Below are positions 18,967 to 31,623 of a DNA stretch of 33,854 nucleotides, piece after piece; the first letter of the stretch is position 1; every line of letters begins with the position of its first letter. Origin of the DNA: Gammaproteobacteria bacterium (GTDB lineage: Bacteria > Pseudomonadota > Gammaproteobacteria > Ga0077536); the NCBI GenBank assembly GCA_030429865.1, contig JAUIFX010000025.1, positions 1 through 33,854 of the forward strand, read 5' to 3'. Made by a program: the position numbers and the translations under genes. The notes beneath the pieces were generated by a model, which was not told the DNA's origin, made no database searches, and was given only the letters and a program-made list of their open reading frames with translations.

Positions 18967-20727
18967 TCAGCGCCGCCCGCCTTCGAGCATCGCGAGCACG
19001 GTGCCGCGCACCGCGTCGATGCGCGCCAGGGTCGCGTCGCGCCCGCAGGCGATCATCGCCTCGTAGCGATCGAAATCGAACACGCCGCCGCAGCGATAGG
19101 TCTCCGGCGTGATCACGAGATCGGCCCGCAGCGCCTCGAGACTCGAACCGTAGGAACCGAGCAGTTCCCAGGAGGCGCCGAGCACCGAGCGGAAGCCGAA
19201 CAGGCGCCCGAGGCGCGACTGCAGCCGCTGTCGCCGGTACTCGTGGTAGGCGAGATCGGTCGCCGGGACTGCCACCACGTTGACCGCGATACGCACCCCG
19301 CAGCGACGCCGTTCGAGCACGTCGACCGGTACGCGCGAGACGATCGCGCCATCGACCATCATGCGATCGCCGGCCGGCATGGGCGGAAAGAAACCCGGGA
19401 TCGCCGACGTTCCCAGTACCGCCGGCAGCACCGGCCCGCTGTCGACGACGGCCCGGTCGGCGGAGATCAGGTCGGAGGCGACGATCGCGGTCGGCAGGCG
19501 CAGGTCGGCGAAGGTGACGTCGTCGAACACCCGGCGCGCGGCCCGCTCGACTTTCGCACCGGAGAACAGCGACGTCCGCGGCCACCAGGCAATGTCACGA
19601 ATCTTGCGATTACCACCGAGGAACTCGCGCACCTTGCGCCCGCCCTCGGCGGCACTCGACGACGCGCCCATGGTCAGCGCCACGATGCCGCCCATACTGG
19701 TGCCGCAGACGAAGTCGACCGGGATGCCCTCGGCCTCGAGCGCTTCGAGCACCCCGACGTGGGCGAACCCCCGCGCTGCGCCCGAGCTGAGTGCCACGCC
19801 GACCTCGCTGAAGGTGATGTAACGCGCCACGTGATCGAGCCGGGGATAGTCCTCGCGCCGCCATGCCTGCGGTTCACTCGCGGCACGCTCGAGTTCGCTG
19901 CGCGGCACGCAGAAGCTCCACCGGCTGTGTTCACCACGGGGACGTTCGTCGACGAACACGCGGCTGTACGCCGCGGCCCCGGCGCGGCGCCGCGCGGTGA
20001 CCGTCTCGTCGCGATCGGAATCGTGCTCGAACAGCTCCAGCACGACATCCTCGGGCAGCAGTTCGCTCGCGATGGCATGCAGGTTGCCGGGCGTGACGAC
20101 CGCGACCAGGTACTGCTCGGCCGCGGCCGTATCGCGCCAGCGTTCGAGACGTTGCAGGTCGAACGGCTCGGGGCTCACCCGCCCCTGCTCGTCCAGTCCG
20201 AGCAGCCGCGAGCCCGGCGCGTAGTGCAGCACGCCGGCGAAGACGCGGCGCGCGAAATCGGCCGGGTCGATGCGCCCGGCGAGGCTCACGATCACCGCAA
20301 TGCCCGGCAGGCGCGCATCGTTGCGCGTGCGATACCGCAGTCTTTCGATGAGCAGCCGCGTCAGGCTGTGATGCAGTTGCGGCTCGACGTCGAGCAGCGC
20401 CAGGAAATCGTCTCCTTCGAGACGATACGTGACCGTGTCGCGCGCCGCGACCAGAGTCGCCGCAACCGGCATGCCCGTGAACAAGGACATCTCCCCGAAC
20501 ACCTGCCCGGGGCCGAGGACGAAGCCACGCCAGCCGCCGGGTGCGTCGGCGTCGGCGAGCACGCGCACCGCGCCGGAGGCGATCGCCTGAAAATACTGTC
20601 CGGGCTCGCCGACCCGCGCGATGATCGAACCCTGCTCGTAATGATGCGTCGGGATCTGGTTGCGCAAACGCGCCAGGGAAGCTGCGGAAAGCGGCGCGAA
20701 AAACGGGATTTCGGCAAGATCCAGCAT
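18967..20727 (-). CDS. Patatin-like phospholipase with N-terminal cyclic-nucleotide-binding domain
   Basis: A 586-residue protein. Residues 1-130 form a cNMP-binding domain (YEQGSIIARVGEPGQYFQAI, GFVLGPGQVFGEMSLFTG). A linker domain of about 170 residues resembles that between the cNMP and patatin domains of neuropathy-target-esterase-like bacterial proteins. The patatin domain from about 308 has the oxyanion loop SSGAARGFAHVG, nucleophile Ser344 in GTSMGG, and catalytic Asp459 in MMVDGAIVSRVP. It should hydrolyse (lyso)phospholipids at the membrane, perhaps under nucleotide control, although the key phosphate-binding Arg of true cAMP sites is not obvious. The start MLDLAEIPFFAPLS at 20727 is chosen by homology; no good ribosome site is seen, and a GTG 15 codons upstream is the alternative. 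Confidence 0.92.
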   Translation of the reverse strand: MLDLAEIPFFAPLSAASLARLRNQIPTHHYEQGSIIARVGEPGQYFQAIASGAVRVLADADAPGGWRGFVLGPGQVFGEMSLFTGMPVAATLVAARDTVTYRLEGDDFLALLDVEPQLHHSLTRLLIERLRYRTRNDARLPGIAVIVSLAGRIDPADFARRVFAGVLHYAPGSRLLGLDEQGRVSPEPFDLQRLERWRDTAAAEQYLVAVVTPGNLHAIASELLPEDVVLELFEHDSDRDETVTARRRAGAAAYSRVFVDERPRGEHSRWSFCVPRSELERAASEPQAWRREDYPRLDHVARYITFSEVGVALSSGAARGFAHVGVLEALEAEGIPVDFVCGTSMGGIVALTMGASSSAAEGGRKVREFLGGNRKIRDIAWWPRTSLFSGAKVERAARRVFDDVTFADLRLPTAIVASDLISADRAVVDSGPVLPAVLGTSAIPGFFPPMPAGDRMMVDGAIVSRVPVDVLERRRCGVRIAVNVVAVPATDLAYHEYRRQRLQSRLGRLFGFRSVLGASWELLGSYGSSLEALRADLVITPETYRCGGVFDFDRYEAMIACGRDATLARIDAVRGTVLAMLEGGRR

Positions 20728-20835
20728 GGCCGCTGCATTAGGCCACCCGCGACTGTACCGCGCAACCGGCACCGCGTCGTACGGGTGGGGGGGGAGTGCG
20801 CGCTGGCGCGCGATGGGCGGCGTCAGCCCTTGTGC

Positions 20836-22008: not shown

Positions 22009-23457
22009 TCAGAAGCTGTAGCGCAGCTCGTAGTAGACGCGGTCGCTGTTGTCGAAGCGGCCGAACAGGTTGGTCGGCTTGCCTTCGAAGATGTCGGCAC
22101 CGAGCACCGCGCGCCAGTTGCGCGCGAAATCCCAGCTGATTTTCGGCTGCAGCAGCCATTCGTCGCGGTTCAGGCTGCGGATCCAGAGCACTTCGGGCGT
22201 GATGTCCGGATGCCAGCTGGTGGTGCGCACGAGGATGCTGAAGCCGGTCTCGAGCTCTTTGAACAGCATGTCGCGGTCGTGATCCTGGAACCAGGTCTGG
22301 AAGAACTGGAAGTTCGCGTTGTAGCCGTCGAAGCCCGCCCAGTCGGCACCGATCACGTAGCGCAGTTCGTCGGTCTCGACCAGGCCATCCGGCGAGGACG
22401 GCCGCGTCACCGTCATCAAGCGGTCCATGGTCTGGATGGCCTCGGCCTTGAGCACGAACGAACCGAAACCCTTGGACACCGTGCCGCCGACCTGGTGAAT
22501 GCGCTCATGGATCGGCCGGAACAGTAACTGCGGCGAAGCGCCCAGGCGCAGCTCGCGCTCGTAGGCCGCGGTCTTGTCGGGACTCGTGTAATAGAACAGC
22601 GACATGTCCCAACCGTTCTTCAGGTAGGAAGCGCGTGCACCGAGACCGTAGTCGCTGATCGGGTCGTTGGGCGTCTTGTCGTCGAGAAAGCGCACGTTCA
22701 CGCCCGGCGGCGGCGTGACCGGGAAGGGAAAGAACTCGGCGCCGAACTCGCCCTGGTCGTCGATCGTCATGTAGGGGATGTAGACGAACTCGCCGTGGAA
22801 ATCGCCCTCGTAGTACTCGGCACGCAAGGCCCACTGGGGAATACGGATGATCTCGAAGTCGGGCAGGATGAACTGGCGCAGGTCGAGCGCAGAGATGACG
22901 TCGGCGAAGAACAGCCCGACCATCTCGCCCCAGATGATGTGCTGGCGCCCGAGGCGGAATTCCCATTTGCCGGCGCTGATGTCGAGAAACGTCTCGTCGA
23001 CCCAGCCGTCGACCTTCTGGTCGCGGTCGACGCGGTCGGGGTAGAAAGTCTCGAAGTCGAAGACCGGGTTGTACTGGATGTGGCCGCCGACCTGCCAGCT
23101 GACGCGCGAGTTGAAGCTGCCCTTGAGATAGACCTTGGCGCGGGTCAGGAAATGCTGGAAATGCGGATCGGGCCCCGTGTAGCCGTAGGCCAGTTCGTTC
23201 TGCACGAAACCCGTGAAGCGCACACCGGAAGACGACGCCGCCGCGGCCGCCGCCGCGGCCGGGGTCTCGACGAACAGGTCATCGAACGAACCGACATCGG
23301 CAGCCGCATCGTCCGTGTCCGCCTCGGGCGTGGTCTGGACCTCCTCTTCGGACGGCGCACTGTCTTCGAACAGGTCGTCGAACGACTCCTGCGCCTGCAC
23401 CGTGGTAACGAGTGCGGCGAGCAGAATCCCTGCTCGAATAGGCTGCATGCCGAGCAT
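22009..23457 (-). CDS. Outer-membrane beta-barrel protein, DUF1302-like
   Basis: A 482-residue exported barrel with signal peptide (IRAGILLAALVTTVQAQ). An acidic N-terminal linker carries SFDDLF twice (one followed by ED, one by VE) and an eight-Ala run. The barrel follows from about residue 77: VRFTGFVQNELAYGY, FLTRAKVYLKGSF, LGRQHIIWGEMVGLFFADVI and a final YYELRYSF ending in Phe, the standard BAM signal. The RxxIxWG block and overall layout resemble the DUF1302 family, often found with lipid or sterol exporters. The start is uncertain: ATG 23457 has AGGGA ten bases upstream, while ATG 23487 overlaps the ATPase stop (TGATG). Translational coupling to the ATPase gene makes it the likely outer-membrane part of the same transporter. 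Confidence 0.85.
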   Translation of the reverse strand: MLGMQPIRAGILLAALVTTVQAQESFDDLFEDSAPSEEEVQTTPEADTDDAAADVGSFDDLFVETPAAAAAAAASSSGVRFTGFVQNELAYGYTGPDPHFQHFLTRAKVYLKGSFNSRVSWQVGGHIQYNPVFDFETFYPDRVDRDQKVDGWVDETFLDISAGKWEFRLGRQHIIWGEMVGLFFADVISALDLRQFILPDFEIIRIPQWALRAEYYEGDFHGEFVYIPYMTIDDQGEFGAEFFPFPVTPPPGVNVRFLDDKTPNDPISDYGLGARASYLKNGWDMSLFYYTSPDKTAAYERELRLGASPQLLFRPIHERIHQVGGTVSKGFGSFVLKAEAIQTMDRLMTVTRPSSPDGLVETDELRYVIGADWAGFDGYNANFQFFQTWFQDHDRDMLFKELETGFSILVRTTSWHPDITPEVLWIRSLNRDEWLLQPKISWDFARNWRAVLGADIFEGKPTNLFGRFDNSDRVYYELRYSF

Positions 23458-23486
23458 GTGTAGGCGTTCCCTGCGTTCGCGCCGCA

Positions 23487-24161
23487 TCACAGCACCAGGC
23501 GCCCGTCGGCAATGCTGACGATGCGGTCGGCCATCTCCATGATGCGGAAATCGTGGGTCGAGAAGATGAAGGTCGTGCCCTCGGTCTCGTTGATGCGTTT
23601 CATCAGCGACAGGATACTCTCGCCGGTCTTCGAGTCGAGATTCGCGGTCGGTTCGTCGGCGAGCACGATGCTCGGGCCGCCGGCCAGCGCGCGGGCCACG
23701 GCGACGCGCTGGCGCTGCCCGCCCGACAGTTCGTTCGGTTTGTGCCGCGACTTGGCCTCGAGGCCGACGACGCTGAGGTAGTGTTTGACCCGTTGCGCGC
23801 GCTCGCGCGGGCTGATGTCACTGCGCTGCAACATGGGATACTCCACGTTCTCCGCTGCGCTCAACACCGGCAGGAGATTAAAGGTCTGGAAGACGAAGCC
23901 GAGAGTCTTGGCTCGGAGATCGGCGAGATCGTCAGGCGTTTTGTTGCTCACCATCTCGTCGCCGATGAAAATCTCGCCGCGCGACGGCGTGTCGATACAA
24001 CCGATCATGTTGAGCAGCGTCGTCTTGCCGCTGCCCGAGGGACCCGCGATGGCCAGGAAGCGCCCCGGCGCGACGACCATGGACACGTCCTGTACCGCGT
24101 ACACGGTCTGGTTGCCCAGGTTGTATTCCTTGGACACGTTTTCGACACGGACAACATGCAT
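23487..24161 (-). CDS. LolD/MacB-like ABC transporter ATPase
   Basis: A 224-residue ABC ATPase. Walker A is GPSGSGKT (40-47), the Q-loop Gln92 is in FVFQTFNLLP, the signature is LSGGQRQRVAVARAL (145-159), Walker B is IVLADEPTANLD (165-176), and the switch His203 is in FSTHDFRIM. The FNLLPVLSAAENVEYPM stretch is typical of the LolD/MacB/FtsE group, which pairs with FtsX-fold permeases and works by mechanotransmission rather than classical transport. The start at 24161 gives MHVVRVENVSKEY with a weak ribosome site. Its likely partners are the two permeases at 25123-28044, which are separated from it by the oppositely oriented LolA-like gene. Confidence 0.94.
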   Translation of the reverse strand: MHVVRVENVSKEYNLGNQTVYAVQDVSMVVAPGRFLAIAGPSGSGKTTLLNMIGCIDTPSRGEIFIGDEMVSNKTPDDLADLRAKTLGFVFQTFNLLPVLSAAENVEYPMLQRSDISPRERAQRVKHYLSVVGLEAKSRHKPNELSGGQRQRVAVARALAGGPSIVLADEPTANLDSKTGESILSLMKRINETEGTTFIFSTHDFRIMEMADRIVSIADGRLVL

Positions 24162-24325
24162 GGTGAGAACGCCTGCGACGTGCTCCGCGCCCGCCTCGAT
24201 CACGGGATGCGCTTGAGGTAGCTTATGATATCAATCGCTTAACGCTTTGAATTATTGATCACGCACGGATCCCCATGCAACCGTCGCCAACGGCGCCGCC
24301 CACCCATCATCGCGAGGCCTACACC
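24162..24325. promoter_or_regulatory. Divergent promoter region of ATPase and LolA-like genes
   Basis: A 164-bp gap between divergent starts, with a marked AT-rich island at about 24221-24262 in otherwise GC-rich DNA. On the minus strand TATCAT (24230-24225) is a good -10 match, without a convincing -35. An imperfect dyad (TGATATCAAT at 24226-24235 against ATTGATCA at 24254-24261) spans the island and may be an operator that co-regulates both directions. Confidence 0.4.
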
Positions 24326-25072
24326 GTGAAACGATTCCCGCACCTGCTCCTTTGTCTCATCGTCGCCGCGTTGTCCGGCGGCGCGGCGAGCGCGGCCCCC
24401 GACCCGGCCCGGCTGGTCGCCCGCGCCGACGAGATCCGCTTTCCGTCGCAGCCGTTCCAGGTTCTCGTCACGGTGACTTCGATCCGCGACGACGAACAGA
24501 GCGAGCGGCACATCTACCAGGTGCTGCAGAAAGGCCACGAGCGCAGCGTCGTGCGGACGCTGGCGCCCGACTCGGAGAAGGGCCAGGTCATGCTGCTGCG
24601 CGACGCGGACCTGTGGATCTTCCTGCCCGACGTGTCCCAACCCGTGCGCCTGCCGCTCTCGCAGCGTCTCACCGGGCAGGTCGCCAACGGCGACCTCGCG
24701 CGCGCGAACTTCGCCGGCGACTACGAGGCGAAACTGGACAAGGTCGAGGAAATCGAGGGCGAACAGTACGCGGTGCTCGAGTTGACCGCGGCACGCAAGG
24801 GAGTGACTTATCACCGCGTGCGCTACTGGGTGAACGCGGCGAACGCCCGCCCCTACAAGGTCGAGTTCTACACCCTCTCCGGCCGGCTGATGAAGACCGG
24901 CATGTACACGAACTTCGCCGAACTCGGCGGTGCCGTGCGACCCACCCGCCTGGTACTCATCGACGCGCTGCGCGAAGGCGAGAAGTCGGTGCTCGACTAC
25001 AGCTCGCTCAAGCTGCGCGACATCCCCGACAAGTTCTTCACCAAGGACTTCCTGCGCAAACTGAAGAACTGA
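24326..25072 (+). CDS. LolA-like outer-membrane lipoprotein-sorting protein
   Basis: A 248-residue periplasmic protein. The start is a GTG at 24326 with GCGAGG eight bases upstream, giving signal peptide MKRFPHLLLCLIVAALSGG cut after ASA. The mature part follows the LolA-like family: IRFPSQPFQVLVTVTSIRD, YQVLQKGHERSVVRTLAP, KGQVMLLRDADLWIFLPD and PVRLPLSQRLTGQVANGD. It continues with ANFAGDYEAKL, VEEIEGEQYAVLELTA, YHRVRYWVN and PYKVEFYTLSGRLMKT. This half-barrel fold carries a lipid or lipoprotein acyl chain across the periplasm. Members of this subfamily usually sit beside an exporter (RND/MMPL or ABC) and a DUF1302-type outer-membrane protein; here the partner is ABC-type. Confidence 0.9.
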   Translation: MKRFPHLLLCLIVAALSGGAASAAPDPARLVARADEIRFPSQPFQVLVTVTSIRDDEQSERHIYQVLQKGHERSVVRTLAPDSEKGQVMLLRDADLWIFLPDVSQPVRLPLSQRLTGQVANGDLARANFAGDYEAKLDKVEEIEGEQYAVLELTAARKGVTYHRVRYWVNAANARPYKVEFYTLSGRLMKTGMYTNFAELGGAVRPTRLVLIDALREGEKSVLDYSSLKLRDIPDKFFTKDFLRKLKN

Positions 25073-25098
25073 GGGGCACGCCGCGGCAGGCTTCGAGC

Positions 25099-25121
25099 CG
25101 CCGGGCGCGGGCCGCCCGGCG
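25099..25121. terminator. Bidirectional terminator-like hairpin
   Basis: Perfect 8-bp arms (CGCCGGGC at 25099-25106, GCCCGGCG at 25114-25121) with a 7-base loop, in the 50-bp gap between the convergent LolA-like and permease genes. No T-tract. Confidence 0.5.
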
Positions 25122-25122
25122 T

Positions 25123-26334
25123 TCAGATGTTCCGCGTGAGCGCCAGCGCGATCGGCGTACGCGTCGGTTGGCGGCAGGTCAGCAGCGCCGACACGACGGT
25201 CGCGACAAAGCCGATCAGGAACGCCACCAAGCACACGCCGGGCACGATGCGGATGTAGGCCGTGTAGGCCGCGTTGGAGCTCGGCGGCGGCGGCATCGGG
25301 ATGCCGACCTCGGAGATCAGCACGGCGAGGCCGATGCCCACGGCCACGCCGAGCGCGGCACCCACGGTGCCGAGTATCGCGTTCTCGATCACCAGCAGCC
25401 GGTAGACATAGCTCGACGTGTGGCCGATCGCGCGTATCGTGCCGAACTCGCCGACACGCTCGTTGGCCGTCATGCTGACGCTGTTGGCGACGCTCAGCAG
25501 GACGATTCCCAGGATAATCACCTGCAGCACGCCGAACTGGCTCTGGTAGAGCGCTACCGTCTTGGCGTAGAAGTCGTCCAGCTCGAGCCAGGTCTTGACC
25601 TCGTAACGCTCGCCGAGCACGTGCTGGCCGAGCCAGTCGACCAGCGGATCGACATAGCTCACATCGGTCAGCGAGAACACCAGGCTGTGCAGCGCGGTGG
25701 TATCGAGCAGTTCGCGCGCGGTCGCGATCGGGATGCGTACGGCGCGCGCGTCGAAATCCTTCGAGAACGAGCGGAACACGCCGACGACCTCGAACTCGAG
25801 CGAGTTCATGAACCCGGAGGTGGTCGTCGCGACCATGGTCACGTAATCGCCGGGGGCGAGTGCGAGCGCCGTCGCCACGCCCTCGCCGAGGACGATGGCA
25901 TAGGCGTCGTCGTCGCTGAGCTCACGCCCGGCGACTACCGACATGAAGCTCGCCATTTCGTTCTCTTTCTCCGGCTCGATGCCTTCGACGATGACCGAGC
26001 GGTCGGTACGCGAATTGTTGAGCAGGCCGGTGAAGTTCAGGCGCTGCAGCACCTCGGTCACGACCGGCAGCGTCCCGACCTTCTCCAGGACCGCTTCGGG
26101 GTCTTCGATCATGTAGTCATAGGGTTCGCGGCGGCCGAACTCGTAGTAACCGGCACGGTAGAGCTGCAGGTAGCCGAGGCGCGATTTGATCGTCGCGTCG
26201 CGCAGCTGGTGGTAGATGTCCTCGACGAAGCCGCCGGCGAGGATCAGTGCCGCCACGCCGAACACGATCGACGCGAGCGTGATCATCGTGCGGCCCTTCT
26301 GGCGCGTCAGGTTTCTAAGGGCAAGGCGAAACAT
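25123..26334 (-). CDS. FtsX-type ABC permease (LolC/E or MacB-like), second of pair
   Basis: A 403-residue permease. TM1 lies in MITLASIVFGVAALILAGGF, and a periplasmic domain of about 220 residues follows. Three C-terminal helices come next: FGVLQVIILGIVLLSVANSV, then LGTVGAALGVAVGIGLAVLI, then VCLVAFLIGFVATVVSALL. NERVGEFGTIRAIGHT is the coupling-helix region contacting the ATPase. The start at 26334 follows AGGAG with 9-base spacing, 15 bases after the stop of the first permease. The protein is a clear paralogue of that permease (compare ILAGGFVED and LRDATIKSRLGYLQL with LLAGGFIEW and LRETTIEAHLGHIQV), as LolC and LolE are of each other. Confidence 0.92.
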   Translation of the reverse strand: MFRLALRNLTRQKGRTMITLASIVFGVAALILAGGFVEDIYHQLRDATIKSRLGYLQLYRAGYYEFGRREPYDYMIEDPEAVLEKVGTLPVVTEVLQRLNFTGLLNNSRTDRSVIVEGIEPEKENEMASFMSVVAGRELSDDDAYAIVLGEGVATALALAPGDYVTMVATTTSGFMNSLEFEVVGVFRSFSKDFDARAVRIPIATARELLDTTALHSLVFSLTDVSYVDPLVDWLGQHVLGERYEVKTWLELDDFYAKTVALYQSQFGVLQVIILGIVLLSVANSVSMTANERVGEFGTIRAIGHTSSYVYRLLVIENAILGTVGAALGVAVGIGLAVLISEVGIPMPPPPSSNAAYTAYIRIVPGVCLVAFLIGFVATVVSALLTCRQPTRTPIALALTRNI

Positions 26335-26349
26335 GGCTGGCCGCTCCTG

Positions 26350-28044
26350 TCAGCGCGCGTGGCGCAGCGCGTCGACGATTTCCAGCCGCGCGGCCTTGCG
26401 CGCCGGGTAGATGCTCGCCGCGATGGTCGCACCGAGACCGAGGATGACGCCGCCAATGATGAGCGGCGTCGTCACCATGATGAGACCGTCCACCGGGAAG
26501 TCCATGCCCGGTGCCGGCGGCATCGGGATGCCGATGGCCGAGATGCCCTTGGCCAGCAGCCAGCCGACGGCCGCGCCGACCACGCCACCGAGCGCGCCCA
26601 GCGCCACGCCCTCGCTCAGGAAGAGCATCAGTATCTTGCGCCGCCGGAGACCCAGTGCCATCAGGGTACCGATCTCGCCGGTGCGTTCCATCACGTTCAT
26701 GATCAAGGTGTTGGAAATGCTGACCACGATGATCAGCGCGATGACCACCCACACCACGTTGACCTGGGCGGCGAACAGCTTGGCGGTCTTGTTGTAGAAA
26801 TGGGCCAGGTCCGACCACGGCACGAACTCGAAGCCGGCGGTGCCGGCAAAACGCGCACGCAGGGCGGCCAGCGTATCCTGGGTCGCCTCGGTGTCGTCGA
26901 GCAGCACGATCCAGCGATGCGCGCCGTCGACGCGGATGAGCCGCTGGGCCATCGCGATGGGCATGCGCAGCGACGCATCGTCGTAGGCCTTGTTCGACGT
27001 CTGGAAGATCCCCACTACCTCGGCCTCGACGGCGCCGAGGCCGCCGCCTTCGGGACTCGCCATCAGCACGACCGTCGCGCCCGGCTCGACCTTGAGGTTC
27101 TTGGCCAGGCCCTTGCCGACGATGATGCCGTCGGGACGCGCGCTGTCCAGGTTGCTGCCGGCGACGATGGTCAGGCGCTTGGAGACCTGGGCTTCGCGGG
27201 TCGGGTCGACCCCCTCGCCGAGAAAGGAGATCGAGACGTCGTCGAAACTGATCAGGCCGGACAGCGACAGCCGCGGGGTCACGGTAACGACGTGTTCGGC
27301 ATCGGCGATCTCGCTCGCCATCGGCGCCGACGAGGGGATCAGGTAAGCAAACGGATCGGCTTCGCCCTTCTCGAAGTAGCCTTCCTTGACCACCTGGATG
27401 TGGCCCAGGTGCGCCTCGATCGTGGTCTCGCGCAGGAACCAGTTGCTCCATTCGATGAAGCCGCCGGCAAGCAGCATCGCCATCACCCCGAAGGAGATCG
27501 CGAGCAGGCCCATGCCGGTGCGGCGGCGATGCCGCAGGAGGTTGCGTAACACGTGGCGGATCTCGTTCGGGCGCGGCAGCCATTCGAGAAGGCCGCCGCG
27601 CGGCGCGCTGCTCGCGGCGTCGCCGCTGGCGACGAATTCGCCCGGATTCGGCGCGAGCCCCGCTTCGAGTTCGCGCATGCGCCGTTCGCGCTCCGAGAGG
27701 TAATCGTCGTCACCCGCGAGCGCGGCCTCCGCCTCGCTCTGGATGCCGTCGATGGCGGCAGCACCGGCGCGCTCGGGGACGTGCTCGGTACTTACCGGCT
27801 GGCCCTGGCCGAGGCTGCGCGCGGTCTTCGCGTCCATCACCACGCGGTCGCCGAAGCTCTGGAACAGGAGCTGGCTGCCGAGCGGGATGACGGCGCCCTG
27901 GGGACGCTCCTCGACGATGTTCGCGAGGGCGTTGAAGACCGTGCCGCACTTCACGCAACGGACCATGCCCATCGCGGTGCGCAGGTTGTCCGCGGTGACG
28001 CGGAAGACCGTCGCGCATTCGTGGTTGGAACAATGGGTGAACAT
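26350..28044 (-). CDS. FtsX-type ABC permease with N-terminal MJ0042-type zinc ribbon
   Basis: A 564-residue protein combining two unrelated modules. Residues 1-41 are a zinc ribbon of the MJ0042/DUF3426 type: FTHCSNHECATVFRV (Cys5, His8, Cys10), then VRCVKCGTVFNAL (Cys30, Cys33). Residues 42-160 are a low-complexity, acidic cytosolic linker. From about 165 it is an FtsX permease: TM1 near 177-198, a periplasmic domain, and C-terminal helices around VVWVVIALIIVVSISNTLI, GALGGVVGAAVGWLLAKG and PLIIGGVILGLGATIAASI. The coupling region is ERTGEIGTLMALGLRRR. The ATG at 28044 lies nine bases after the flavoprotein stop and lacks a clear ribosome site, so translation is probably coupled. The reading frame is continuous, with no sign of a frameshift. 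The ribbon should lie in the cytoplasm next to the ATPase. Zinc binding and its purpose are inference. Confidence 0.93.
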   Translation of the reverse strand: MFTHCSNHECATVFRVTADNLRTAMGMVRCVKCGTVFNALANIVEERPQGAVIPLGSQLLFQSFGDRVVMDAKTARSLGQGQPVSTEHVPERAGAAAIDGIQSEAEAALAGDDDYLSERERRMRELEAGLAPNPGEFVASGDAASSAPRGGLLEWLPRPNEIRHVLRNLLRHRRRTGMGLLAISFGVMAMLLAGGFIEWSNWFLRETTIEAHLGHIQVVKEGYFEKGEADPFAYLIPSSAPMASEIADAEHVVTVTPRLSLSGLISFDDVSISFLGEGVDPTREAQVSKRLTIVAGSNLDSARPDGIIVGKGLAKNLKVEPGATVVLMASPEGGGLGAVEAEVVGIFQTSNKAYDDASLRMPIAMAQRLIRVDGAHRWIVLLDDTEATQDTLAALRARFAGTAGFEFVPWSDLAHFYNKTAKLFAAQVNVVWVVIALIIVVSISNTLIMNVMERTGEIGTLMALGLRRRKILMLFLSEGVALGALGGVVGAAVGWLLAKGISAIGIPMPPAPGMDFPVDGLIMVTTPLIIGGVILGLGATIAASIYPARKAARLEIVDALRHAR

Positions 28045-28053
28045 GGCGCCGGG

Positions 28054-29661
28054 TCAGGGAGTGTAGCGGCCGGGAGCGATGAGATTATCCGGATCGACCG
28101 CGGCTTTGAAGTCCCGCACCATGCGCCAGTAGGGACTGTCGGCCTGCACCACCGCGGGCATGGCATCGACACTGCTGCGGTACGGCAGGAAGCCGAGCGC
28201 GCGGCCGCCTTCGCGGAGTTCGTCGTAGCAGGCGCGCGCGCGGGCCACGGCGGCCTCGTCCCGCGCATCGAACAGCAGCGGCACGGTGCTGTCGAAGCAA
28301 CGCTCGGAAAGGCTCGTCAGCGTGATCAGCGGCTCGATGCCGTGCTTGCGGCAGACGCTGTCGACGAAGCCGGTGTAAGTCCGCACGAGTGCGGGCTTCA
28401 TCGGTACGAGCGGTGCATACCAGATGAGACCGCAACCATCGCGTGCCGGGTCGAGATCGTCGTGTGCGGGCCGGCGCCCGGGCACGCGCCAGTAGGCGAG
28501 CGGCAACGCGATCTCGCTCGGCGCGCCGCCGAGCAGCTGCAACGTCTTGTCGAACGTCGCGAGCACGTTGCCGAGCTTCGAGGTCGCGAAACCAGGGACG
28601 AAGCGGGTCACCGCGCGCACGCGGGCGAGCCGCGGCGCGCTGACGAACAGCAGGCGCCGCGCGAGCGGGCGTAACGCGGCCTTGACCTCGGCGACAGCAG
28701 CGGCGACCACGCGGCGCTGCCCGTACAGCGCGCCGGCGCCGGTCCACGCCATGACCTGGTTGGCACGACCGAGCGCGGCGACCTGCGCGTCGGGAATGAC
28801 GGCCTGTGCGGGCACGCCGTCGGGATAAGGCACCATCATCGACAGCACGCGCCGCTGGTTCATGAGATTGATCGAACCGGCGACGCCCTGCGTGCGCCGC
28901 AGCACGTTCTGCACGCGCTGCGTGATCGCTTCGAGCTCGGCGTCCTCGCGCACGCCGAAGAAGAACGCCATGGTCGACTCCGGCCGCGGCGCCAGTGCGA
29001 TCGTCATGCGCGTGACGATGCCGAACGCGCCCTGGGTGAACAGGCCGTCGAGATAGGGTCCCGTACCCCATTTGAAGACCCGGTCGGCGAGCCCTGCGCC
29101 CTGCAGCGTCAAGGGCGTGCGATAGACTTCGCCGTCGGCGAGCACGGCTTCGAGGGCCGTCACCGCGGCGAAATGATCGGTGTGCGGCGTGATGCCGTAG
29201 CCACGCTCGAGCGCGTTGCCGAGCAGGCTGCAGGTCGGCCCGCCGCCGTGCACCGGTACCAGGTACTCGGCGCCGCGGGCATCGAGGAACTCGCGCAGCG
29301 CACGCTGCGTCACGCCCGGCTCCAGCGTGACGACGCCGAGCTCGCGATCGAACTCGAGGACGCGGTCGAGCCGCGCGAGGTCGACCACCACGCAATCGTC
29401 GCGCGCCGGGTTGGCGCTGCCGTAGCCCCAGTTGTGCCCGGTGCTGAGCGGGTAGAGCGCTACGCGGTGGCGCCGCGCGACCAGCACCGCACGGCGCACC
29501 GCGTCGGCGTCGGCGGGGGCGATGGCGCCGAGAATCCGGCGCCTCGTCGCCATCGTGCAGGCGCCGTGGCGGGCTTGCGCCGCCGCGCCGTCGAGCACGG
29601 CGTCCGCGCCGAGTTCGCGCCGCCAGTCCTCGAGGGCCGCGGCGAGCGTCGCGCCGTCCAT
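28054..29661 (-). CDS. VAO/PCMH-type FAD-linked oxidoreductase
   Basis: A 535-residue flavoprotein of the vanillyl-alcohol oxidase / p-cresol methylhydroxylase family. The FAD-binding PCMH domain begins near residue 40, with LYPLSTGHNWGYGSANP, VVVDLARLDRVLEFD, GVVTLEPGVTQRALREFL, VPVHGGGPTCSLLGNALERG and YGITPHTDHFAAV. The C-terminal end is DPDNLIAPGRY. Family members oxidise para-substituted phenols or related alcohols. The start MDGATLAAALEDW at 29661 lies 2 bases after the upstream stop; no strong ribosome site, so coupling is likely. It is co-transcribed with the membrane protein before it and the two permeases after it. No cytochrome c partner is adjacent. Substrate unknown. Confidence 0.9.
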   Translation of the reverse strand: MDGATLAAALEDWRRELGADAVLDGAAAQARHGACTMATRRRILGAIAPADADAVRRAVLVARRHRVALYPLSTGHNWGYGSANPARDDCVVVDLARLDRVLEFDRELGVVTLEPGVTQRALREFLDARGAEYLVPVHGGGPTCSLLGNALERGYGITPHTDHFAAVTALEAVLADGEVYRTPLTLQGAGLADRVFKWGTGPYLDGLFTQGAFGIVTRMTIALAPRPESTMAFFFGVREDAELEAITQRVQNVLRRTQGVAGSINLMNQRRVLSMMVPYPDGVPAQAVIPDAQVAALGRANQVMAWTGAGALYGQRRVVAAAVAEVKAALRPLARRLLFVSAPRLARVRAVTRFVPGFATSKLGNVLATFDKTLQLLGGAPSEIALPLAYWRVPGRRPAHDDLDPARDGCGLIWYAPLVPMKPALVRTYTGFVDSVCRKHGIEPLITLTSLSERCFDSTVPLLFDARDEAAVARARACYDELREGGRALGFLPYRSSVDAMPAVVQADSPYWRMVRDFKAAVDPDNLIAPGRYTP

Positions 29662-29663
29662 GT

Positions 29664-30335
29664 TCAGGGTGTCGCCGGGGTCGCGCCGAAGCGTCTCAAC
29701 AGCGGCAGGGCGAGGCGCCACAGGAACAGGCCGACGCCGCCCCACAGCGTGATGAACCACAGCGGCACCCCGCCCGGCGGATCGCCCGGGTAGAACCACT
29801 CGCCGGTGTAGACCCCGGTGTACTCGATGAGCGCGCCGAGGCCGATCATGTAGCCGGTATAGAGCAGGTCGTGGCGGGTATGGAAGAGCACCAGGCCGAC
29901 GACGAGCAGGGTCCCGGTCACGGCGAGCAGGATGTCGGCGTCCGGAATCGCGCCGAACGCGGCCGCGTAGGCGAGCGCCAGCACCCAGGCGCTGCGCGTG
30001 ACCGGCGGCGGTTCACCGCCCAGCATGCGCCGCGTGTGCAGCGTGTAGAAGCCCCACATCGGCAGCTCGTACCAGGGCATGCGCAGGACGTCGGGCGAGG
30101 TGAACGCGAAAATGCCCTGGCCGAGCGACATCGCGTTCATGAACGTGAAGAACGCCGAGACACACAGGAAGAAGACCATCTCGCCCAGACGCAGCGGCCA
30201 GAACGTCGCCAGCCACAATACGAGCAGGGCGCCGAGCTTGGCGAGGTTGCCCGGCAGAAAGGCGAGGATCGCCAGGGTGGCGACGAGTTGGAGGACGAGC
30301 AGGCCCCTGCCTGGGTGCGGGTTGGCGCGGGTCAT
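29664..30335 (-). CDS. Multi-pass inner-membrane protein of unknown function
   Basis: A 223-residue polytopic protein with about six to seven hydrophobic segments, starting with LLVLQLVATLAILAFLPG and ending with FITLWGGVGLFLWRLALPLL. Conserved-looking polar motifs inside the membrane region are LYTGYMIGLGALIEYTGVYT and GEWFYPGDPPGGVPLW, the latter reminiscent of carotenoid-cyclase-like or DUF2878-like membrane families, but I cannot assign it. It is the first gene of the operon with the flavoprotein and permeases. A -10-like TATACT (30372-30367) lies 31 bases upstream. Confidence 0.8.
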   Translation of the reverse strand: MTRANPHPGRGLLVLQLVATLAILAFLPGNLAKLGALLVLWLATFWPLRLGEMVFFLCVSAFFTFMNAMSLGQGIFAFTSPDVLRMPWYELPMWGFYTLHTRRMLGGEPPPVTRSAWVLALAYAAAFGAIPDADILLAVTGTLLVVGLVLFHTRHDLLYTGYMIGLGALIEYTGVYTGEWFYPGDPPGGVPLWFITLWGGVGLFLWRLALPLLRRFGATPATP

Positions 30336-30444: not shown

Positions 30445-31323
30445 TCAGGCCTTGCGGCGGCGGTTGCCGGCGAAGCCGAAGGCGCTCAGGCCGAGGCCGA
30501 TGAGGGCCAGGCTGCCCGGCTCCGGCACGAAGAAGGCGCGAACCGGGTCGTTGCTGCGCAGCTGCCAGCCGGTCGGCGGCAGGCCACCGGCAGCAGCGGT
30601 GCTCACGCAGCCCTGCTGGCCCGGGGTGCAGAAGTCGTTCTGCGCGAACATGTCGGCCGCACCGCCGAGGAAGCCGTCGGTGTCGAAGTTGCTGGCGTAG
30701 GCGCCGCCGACGACGCGGAGGAAGCCCTGCGCGGTACCGGTGGCCGGGAAGGTCGCCTGCGTGAAGTTACCGGCGACGGTCGCAGTCGGGTCGACCAGGC
30801 TCACACCGGGCACCCACTCGAGGGACAGGAACAGCTCGCCGCCGACGACGTTGCTGATGCCGTTGTAGCACTGCCCGCCGATAGCGCAGCCACCCGCGGC
30901 GTAACCGCCGAGGCCCTGCGTGTAACCGCCCACTCCGGCAAAGCTGCCGACCGGGTTGATGTAGATGTCGAGGACGCCGCCGGTCGACAGGATGTCGACA
31001 CCGCCGATGCCCGAGGGCGTGACGCTGCTGACATTGATCTGGCCGAACACGCCGGTGAGCTCGGCACCGTTGACGCCGGTGTTCCACAGCTGCGTGGCGA
31101 GCAGCGGGTTCTCGACGCTGGTGATGTTCAGCGTGCCGAAGTTCACGGCGCCGGGCCCGATCTGACCGCCGGTCAGGTTGGCGAAGGATTCGAAGTTGCC
31201 GAACTTGATTTCGATTTCGCCGGTGTAGCCGCCTGCGAGTTCGAAAGTCGGCGCCGCCGAGGCGTTGGACGCGAGCAGGCCGAGGGCAAGGCCGGCTGCT
31301 GCGAGGGTGGACATGCTCTTCAT
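30445..31323 (-). CDS. PEP-CTERM sorting domain protein
   Basis: A 292-residue secreted protein. The start at 31323 follows AGGAG with 8-base spacing; signal peptide STLAAAGLALGLLASNASA. The body is beta-rich with four Cys (GCAIGGQC, and FCTPGQQGC) and Gly-rich runs. The tail is a textbook PEP-CTERM signal: VPEPGSLALIGLGL, then hydrophobic SAFGFAG and basic NRRRKA. Exosortase cleaves such tails and the proteins end up in the exopolymer or on the surface. Functionally uncharacterised. It has its own sigma-54-type promoter and strong terminator, so it is monocistronic and probably highly expressed under floc- or biofilm-type conditions, by analogy with other PEP-CTERM systems. Confidence 0.95.
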   Translation of the reverse strand: MKSMSTLAAAGLALGLLASNASAAPTFELAGGYTGEIEIKFGNFESFANLTGGQIGPGAVNFGTLNITSVENPLLATQLWNTGVNGAELTGVFGQINVSSVTPSGIGGVDILSTGGVLDIYINPVGSFAGVGGYTQGLGGYAAGGCAIGGQCYNGISNVVGGELFLSLEWVPGVSLVDPTATVAGNFTQATFPATGTAQGFLRVVGGAYASNFDTDGFLGGAADMFAQNDFCTPGQQGCVSTAAAGGLPPTGWQLRSNDPVRAFFVPEPGSLALIGLGLSAFGFAGNRRRKA

Positions 31324-31412
31324 GGTCTTATCTCCTGAATCATCCTGTTGCGGATTGATTGATTTCTGGTCTCGAGCGGTGCTGACCGTTTCGTAACCTT
31401 GGCCCAGACAAA

Positions 31413-31427
31413 GCAATCGCTGTGCCA
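31413..31427 (-). promoter_or_regulatory. Sigma-54 (RpoN) promoter of PEP-CTERM gene
   Basis: On the minus strand TGGCAC (31427-31422), five bases AGCGA, then TTGC (31416-31413): an exact match to the -24/-12 core TGGCAC-N5-TTGC. It predicts transcription start near 31401 and a leader of about 80 bases before the ATG at 31323. PEP-CTERM genes in other bacteria are controlled by RpoN with the PrsK/PrsR two-component system, which fits the divergent PrsT-like gene. Confidence 0.8.
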
Positions 31428-31623
31428 GCAATCCCATGCCTTTGCGAAACAGGTGCTTGCGCGAGCTCCCCGGATTCTGTGGCGGGCGCCATCGGCTGTT
31501 TTGTAAAGCTTCTGGACAGGCTTGCGGGGGCATTTTCGCGACAGCTTCGGCAGCGGCTCGGCACTGCACCAGAAATATATTCAAAAACAGAGTATTAGAT
31601 GGATTTCCGTGGCCGCGGGCAGG

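Follow-up and report, generated by a model that had tools for sequence, protein, structure and literature searches.

ABC transporters of the LolCDE/MacB class extract or export their substrates. The AmeABCD system of Castellaniella defragrans, in which a DUF1302 protein and a LolA-superfamily protein occur beside an RND pump, has been linked to monoterpene efflux (PMC6394551). ThiF and nitroreductase proteins are the known tailoring pair of the OxzAB/TyzABC pathway (PMC10404671), and the tyz genes are flanked by mmpL9, the product of which was suggested to move the lipid. The stieleriacine cluster of Stieleria, which contains the same enzymes, includes "putative permease and exporter proteins", and the culture supernatant contained stieleriacine D (PMC7378531). 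An association of N-acyl amino acid synthases with exosortases has been noted earlier (PMC11072679, PMC7293339, PMC4897644). When such a synthase gene was disrupted in Methylomonas LW13, the normal polysaccharide band was lost, and complementation restored it (PMC11072679). In the open-licence literature, we found neither an ABC-LolA-barrel exporter for N-acyl amino acids nor a pairing of exosortase with LolA, or of PEP-CTERM with outer membrane lipoprotein sorting. Here, we describe a locus with five core genes that, with moderate confidence, we propose to encode a dedicated Lol-like trans-envelope exporter of N-acyl amino acid lipids to the outer membrane or cell surface.

The locus is located in a 33,854-nucleotide stretch of a gammaproteobacterial genome, referred to as the window. 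The seven open reading frames that the first-pass annotation had described between positions 22009 and 30335 are all present at about these coordinates, and profile searches showed its family calls to be broadly right (DUF1302, ABC_tran, PF17131, MacB_PCD with FtsX, FtsX with a zinc ribbon, and FAD_binding_4). The gene of the DUF1302-type outer-membrane β-barrel (22009–23490, minus strand, PF06980), the proposed last step at the outer membrane, overlaps by 4 bp with that of a LolD/DevA-type ABC ATPase (23487–24203, minus strand, PF00005), the likely start of which is an internal ATG. The gene of the LolA-like periplasmic carrier (24275–25072, plus strand), an orthologue of NE2245 (PDB 3buu), is divergent from the ATPase gene across a 71 bp intergenic region (24204–24274). 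Judging from this geometry, the region is a probable shared promoter region of the ATPase-barrel genes and the carrier gene. The carrier gene converges, with a gap of 50 bp, on the gene of permease 2 (25123–26334, minus strand), a LolE/LolC-type FtsX permease with FtsX and MacB_PCD domains. A gap of 15 bp separates it from the gene of permease 1 (26350–28044, minus strand), a LolC/E-type FtsX permease with a lineage-specific N-terminal zinc ribbon. The remaining two genes encode a FAD-linked oxidase (28054–29799, minus strand, FAD_binding_4), the true start of which is probably downstream of 29799, and a 223-residue polytopic membrane protein (29664–30335, minus strand) that had no family match in Pfam-type and NCBIfam profile scans. 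Since the carrier gene is on the plus strand, opposite to the six others, and is divergent from or convergent with its neighbors, the seven genes do not form one operon.

Just outside this range is a gene of greater importance than two of the seven, which the first-pass annotation had overlooked, as it had the exosortase link. It encodes an exosortase-associated acyltransferase of the N-acyl amino acid synthase family TIGR03694 (21197–21961, plus strand; 225.3 bits against a curated cut-off of 111.95), which we propose as the cargo maker, and is positioned tail-to-tail with the barrel gene at a distance of 47 bp. The gene order from the synthase to permease 2 is the same in another metagenome bin (L062), the carrier of which is 94% identical, and the arrangement in the window is therefore not an assembly artefact. 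The synthase gene lies near that of a patatin-like phospholipase with an N-terminal cyclic-nucleotide-binding domain (18967–20772), a regulatory domain also present in the FeeM fusions described below. At its other end, the locus is adjoined by a gene for a PEP-CTERM protein (30445–31584) that scores 39 bits against the flocculation protein PepA family, below the cut-off of 80.

The barrel protein matches DUF1302 with 42.7 bits (gathering cut-off 23.2). Its AlphaFold model has a mean pLDDT of 74.7 and is shaped as an outer-membrane barrel, preceded by a disordered N-terminal signal and linker. The nearest folds are those of the OccK/OprD porins (Z ~22) and of the alginate exporter AlgE (Z ~21), all of which are 18-stranded barrels. 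The modelled fold alone gives no transport direction, and the same fold could import. Because substrate-specific uptake channels are among its nearest relatives, the barrel and the carrier might serve the import of hydrophobic substrates or retrograde lipid transport. We consider this very unlikely, as an exporter is equally near in fold and the ABC class to which the ATPase and permeases belong extracts or exports its substrates. The carrier matches PF17131 (LolA_like) with 152.4 bits against a gathering cut-off of 30, and the NE2245 structure 3buu with E = 1.6e-80. The best NCBIfam matches of the ATPase, to DevA (212.6 bits) and LolD (210.9 bits), do not reach the respective cut-offs.

Among proteins of solved structure, both permeases are closest to LolF, LolE, and LolC. 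The model of permease 1 (mean pLDDT 78.2) superimposes best on LolE and LolC (Z up to 30.1, 368 aligned residues, rmsd 5.5), ahead of MacB (Z 19.9), and its predicted structure thus has the LolC/E permease fold. Permease 1 combines FtsX with an MJ0042-type zinc ribbon that scores above the TIGR02098 cut-off. Permeases 1 and 2 reach 113 and 100 bits, respectively, in the lolCE model TIGR02212, the cut-off of which is 362. The sequence TPAGLVPRLKR, which forms the LolC-type Hook hairpin in a canonical LolC/E protein of the same genome, is absent from both window permeases, and the aligned region is different and five residues shorter. Docking of the carrier on the window permeases, which lack the canonical LolA-recruiting Hook, is assumed, and we infer that any docking at this segment must differ in detail.

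The ATPase, permeases, and carrier belong to the same superfamilies as the components of the Lol system, and the genes could in principle encode the genome's housekeeping Lol system for lipoproteins. However, the genome encodes two canonical LolC/E proteins (C26 and C271, about 410 bits each, above the cut-off of 362), as well as LolA (C206) and LolB (C207), on other contigs, and the scores of the window permeases fall far short of the lolCE cut-off. A housekeeping role would require all of the canonical lol contigs to be contamination, which is estimated at 4.6% for this genome. We therefore rejected this explanation as having almost no probability. The canonical LolC/E genes C26 and C271 are on separate contigs, and an overlapping gene for a LolD-like ATPase was seen only with the C271 copy.

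Relatives of the locus were found in a genome collection using a profile of the LolA-like carrier; the ATPase was left out as a query because it is too common. The search provided 280 loci, of which the best 80 were kept, and their carriers form 41 clusters at 80% identity. These 80 loci span Nitrosospira, Nitrosomonas, Sulfuricella, Thiobacillus, Dechloromonas, Accumulibacter, Methyloversatilis, Methylocaldum, and other genera. In translated searches of the 80 loci, 78 gave matches to the ATPase, 73 to the DUF1302 barrel, and 59 to the permeases. In the 44 loci with full flanks of about 10 kb on either side, the barrel and the ATPase are always present, and the permeases are found in 38. Each of the other six genomes encodes a permease pair elsewhere, and all eight genomes checked, those six included, have the pair. 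The geometry of the core is nearly constant, with the barrel and ATPase genes pointing leftward and the carrier gene rightward; the opposite-strand ATPase gene is upstream of the carrier gene in 75 of the 80 loci.

The conserved system is composed of five parts: a DUF1302-type barrel, a LolD-like ATPase, a PF17131 carrier, and two LolC/E-like permeases. The flavoprotein gene was found in 7 of the 80 loci, and that of the 223-residue membrane protein in 1, as well as beside the FAD gene in L039; both are occasional neighbors outside the conserved set. The distinct Lol-like system proposed by the first-pass annotation was thus supported in that the genes of the ATPase, permeases, carrier, and barrel are repeatedly found together in many genera, and in that canonical lol genes are present elsewhere in the genome. 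Its seven-gene composition was rejected, since only five of the genes co-occur in the neighborhoods, and the suggested modification of the cargo by the flavoprotein and the membrane protein found no support. The zinc ribbon was also discarded as a marker of the module. It is lineage-specific: apart from 2 of the 57 permease-bearing loci scored among the 80, it was found in members of the family to which the window belongs. The five genes very likely constitute one transport system.

Three distant gammaproteobacterial genomes contain compact operons transcribed in one direction (L048:8259–13659, L049:7405–12555, and L050:6931–12092), which encode a PF17131-type carrier, two permeases, an ATPase, and, as the last gene, a 411–415-residue protein with a C-terminal aromatic end. 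This possible outer-membrane protein has no Pfam family match, and its hhalign comparison with the DUF1302 barrel was not significant (probability 3%). No TIGR03694 match was found on these three contigs. The architecture may be older than the link to the synthase described below, and its occurrence at a distance without the synthase means that the design is not restricted to a single cargo.

A synthase of the TIGR03694 or FeeM (PF21926) family is encoded in 33 of the 44 full-flank loci; the other 11 have none within 10 kb. All 36 module genomes checked encode at least one synthase, at a density of 0.67 copies per Mb, from which about 1.4% of loci would be expected to have one by chance. The synthase gene directly follows the carrier gene on the same strand in 20 loci (gap −1 to 215 bp), follows the barrel gene in 10, and is tail-to-tail with the barrel gene in 6. 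It is tail-to-tail with the carrier gene in another 2 loci and is located beside the permease genes in 3. On the carrier tree, the three commonest arrangements require at least seven changes, and the association with the synthase has therefore persisted, or been established anew, as the loci were rearranged. In Pseudothauera, where the permease genes are away from the carrier gene, a TIGR03694 gene starts 59 bp behind the permeases. ThiF and/or nitroreductase genes are present in 25 of the 44 full-flank loci.

In one gammaproteobacterial group, a fusion of a FeeM synthase with a cyclic-nucleotide-binding domain is encoded directly behind the barrel gene (L064, L065, L066, L068, L069, and L056:10227–11435); the domain composition suggests N-acyl amino acid synthesis under nucleotide control. 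A 658-residue ThiF-nitroreductase protein that resembles the OxzB fusion is encoded in L045:2222–4198 and L123:4280–6256. Near permeases of the window family in L043:3867–8908, and also in L040 and L041, are genes for an HprK-related kinase A, a WbuX-like amidotransferase, an AMP ligase, a thioester-reductase-like protein, and a methyltransferase, possibly of another pathway.

We consider a lipid of the N-acyl amino acid family to be a reasonably likely cargo. The system could alternatively export a different hydrophobic substance, for example a toxic hydrocarbon or a lipid from the XrtA exopolysaccharide pathway, and be linked to the synthase only through shared regulation or island membership. 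The pairing of DUF1302 and LolA-superfamily proteins in Castellaniella monoterpene efflux (PMC6394551), the XrtA polysaccharide genes that neighbor several loci, and the similar operons of L048–L050 with no synthase nearby are consistent with this alternative. However, the synthase gene is immediately adjacent in several geometries, often on the same strand, and in Pseudothauera it adjoins permeases that are separated from the carrier, which makes the alternative unlikely.

Co-occurrence was surveyed in 275 genomes of the Gammaproteobacteria, the class of the source organism, in which the module carrier was called above 350 bits, the next best match being 169 bits. The carrier is present in eight genomes, all of which encode exosortase A and a TIGR03694 synthase above cut-off. 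The module is absent from 26 genomes with exosortase A and no TIGR03694, and from 13 genomes with TIGR03694 and no exosortase A. The p-values of the association are 5e-7 for exosortase A, 3e-8 for the synthase, and 8e-4 for the synthase given exosortase A, and they overstate independence because the eight genomes come from four families. One exosortase-type locus (L068) is from a record titled as a Klebsiella pneumoniae metagenome-assembled genome and has a carrier nearly identical to those of uncultured gammaproteobacteria (L065, L067); it is probably a mislabelled bin.

These associations might reflect a second Lol-like protein route, in which lipid-anchored PEP-CTERM proteins processed by exosortase A, or special lipoproteins, are delivered to the outer membrane, with the synthase providing their anchor instead of a free cargo. 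Such a route would fit the Lol-like permeases and carrier, the exosortase A in all eight module genomes, and the proximity of XrtA genes to several loci. We nevertheless regard it as improbable, because the 26 genomes with exosortase A and no TIGR03694 also lack the module, the synthase and tailoring enzymes are commoner neighbors than exosortase genes, a barrel is present instead of LolB, and the LolC-type Hook is missing. The first-pass annotation had left the cargo as a hydrophobic compound or a lipoprotein. The former is now narrowed to a proposed N-acyl amino acid lipid, and the latter has become less likely, since the synthase and exosortase links provide a concrete cargo.

We return to the export of N-acyl amino acid lipids by the five-part system. 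Gene content, conservation, genomic association, and fold class form the direct basis of this proposal, from which we infer the transport direction, the order of hand-over, and the cargo. Powered by the ATPase, the paired LolC/E-type permeases would take the amphiphile out of the inner membrane at its periplasmic leaflet. The PF17131 LolA-like protein would shield the acyl chain while crossing the periplasm, and the barrel would receive the lipid and pass it into or through the outer membrane. The exporter would serve the surface or the exopolysaccharide matrix of exosortase-A (PEP-CTERM) bacteria. More tentatively, we speculate that an ABC extractor, a LolA-like shuttle, and a barrel form a new class of lipid export that delivers N-acyl amino acids or acyl-oxazolones to the surface, for the PEP-CTERM/exopolysaccharide matrix or as the lipid acceptor of the exosortase. 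If so, the long-noted link between synthase and exosortase would be explained. The module is probably the missing exporter of N-acyl amino acid lipids in many environmental bacteria. The Lol principle of a membrane extractor handing over to a soluble carrier would then have found a second use in the transport of small lipids, for which a barrel takes the final step. With five named genes and a solved carrier structure (NE2245, 3buu), the proposal is directly testable.

The locus shares features with four described types of systems. Many of its relatives resemble the OxzAB/TyzABC and stieleriacine clusters in combining a synthase with ThiF and nitroreductase genes, although the ThiF/nitroreductase pair of the OxzAB/TyzABC pathway was not found among the window open reading frames scanned. 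Those clusters were described as biosynthetic, without an identified ABC-LolA-barrel exporter, and a Mycobacterium cluster of this type has a flanking MmpL pump gene. As in AmeABCD, a DUF1302 outer-membrane protein occurs with a LolA-superfamily periplasmic protein (PMC6394551). However, AmeABCD has an RND pump and a DUF1329 protein, whereas the window has an ABC transporter and a PF17131 carrier, and no RND-family protein was found among its scanned open reading frames. MacAB-TolC and DevBCA belong to the same ABC superfamily and also export across the envelope, and DevA is the best, sub-cut-off, NCBIfam match of the window ATPase. In contrast to these systems, the core in the window lacks a membrane-fusion protein and TolC, has a soluble carrier rather than a continuous channel, and has an ATPase separate from its two permeases, unlike the single ATPase-permease chain of MacAB-TolC. 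The LolCDE-LolA-LolB system, including LolF, likewise has a separate LolD-like ATPase, LolC/E-type permeases, and a periplasmic carrier of the LolA fold. The window module differs from it in permeases that score far below the lolCE cut-off and carry a hairpin five residues shorter in place of the LolC-type Hook, in a carrier of PF17131 instead of PF03548, and in a DUF1302 barrel in the place of LolB. It is linked to N-acyl amino acid synthases and coexists with the canonical Lol system in the same genome.
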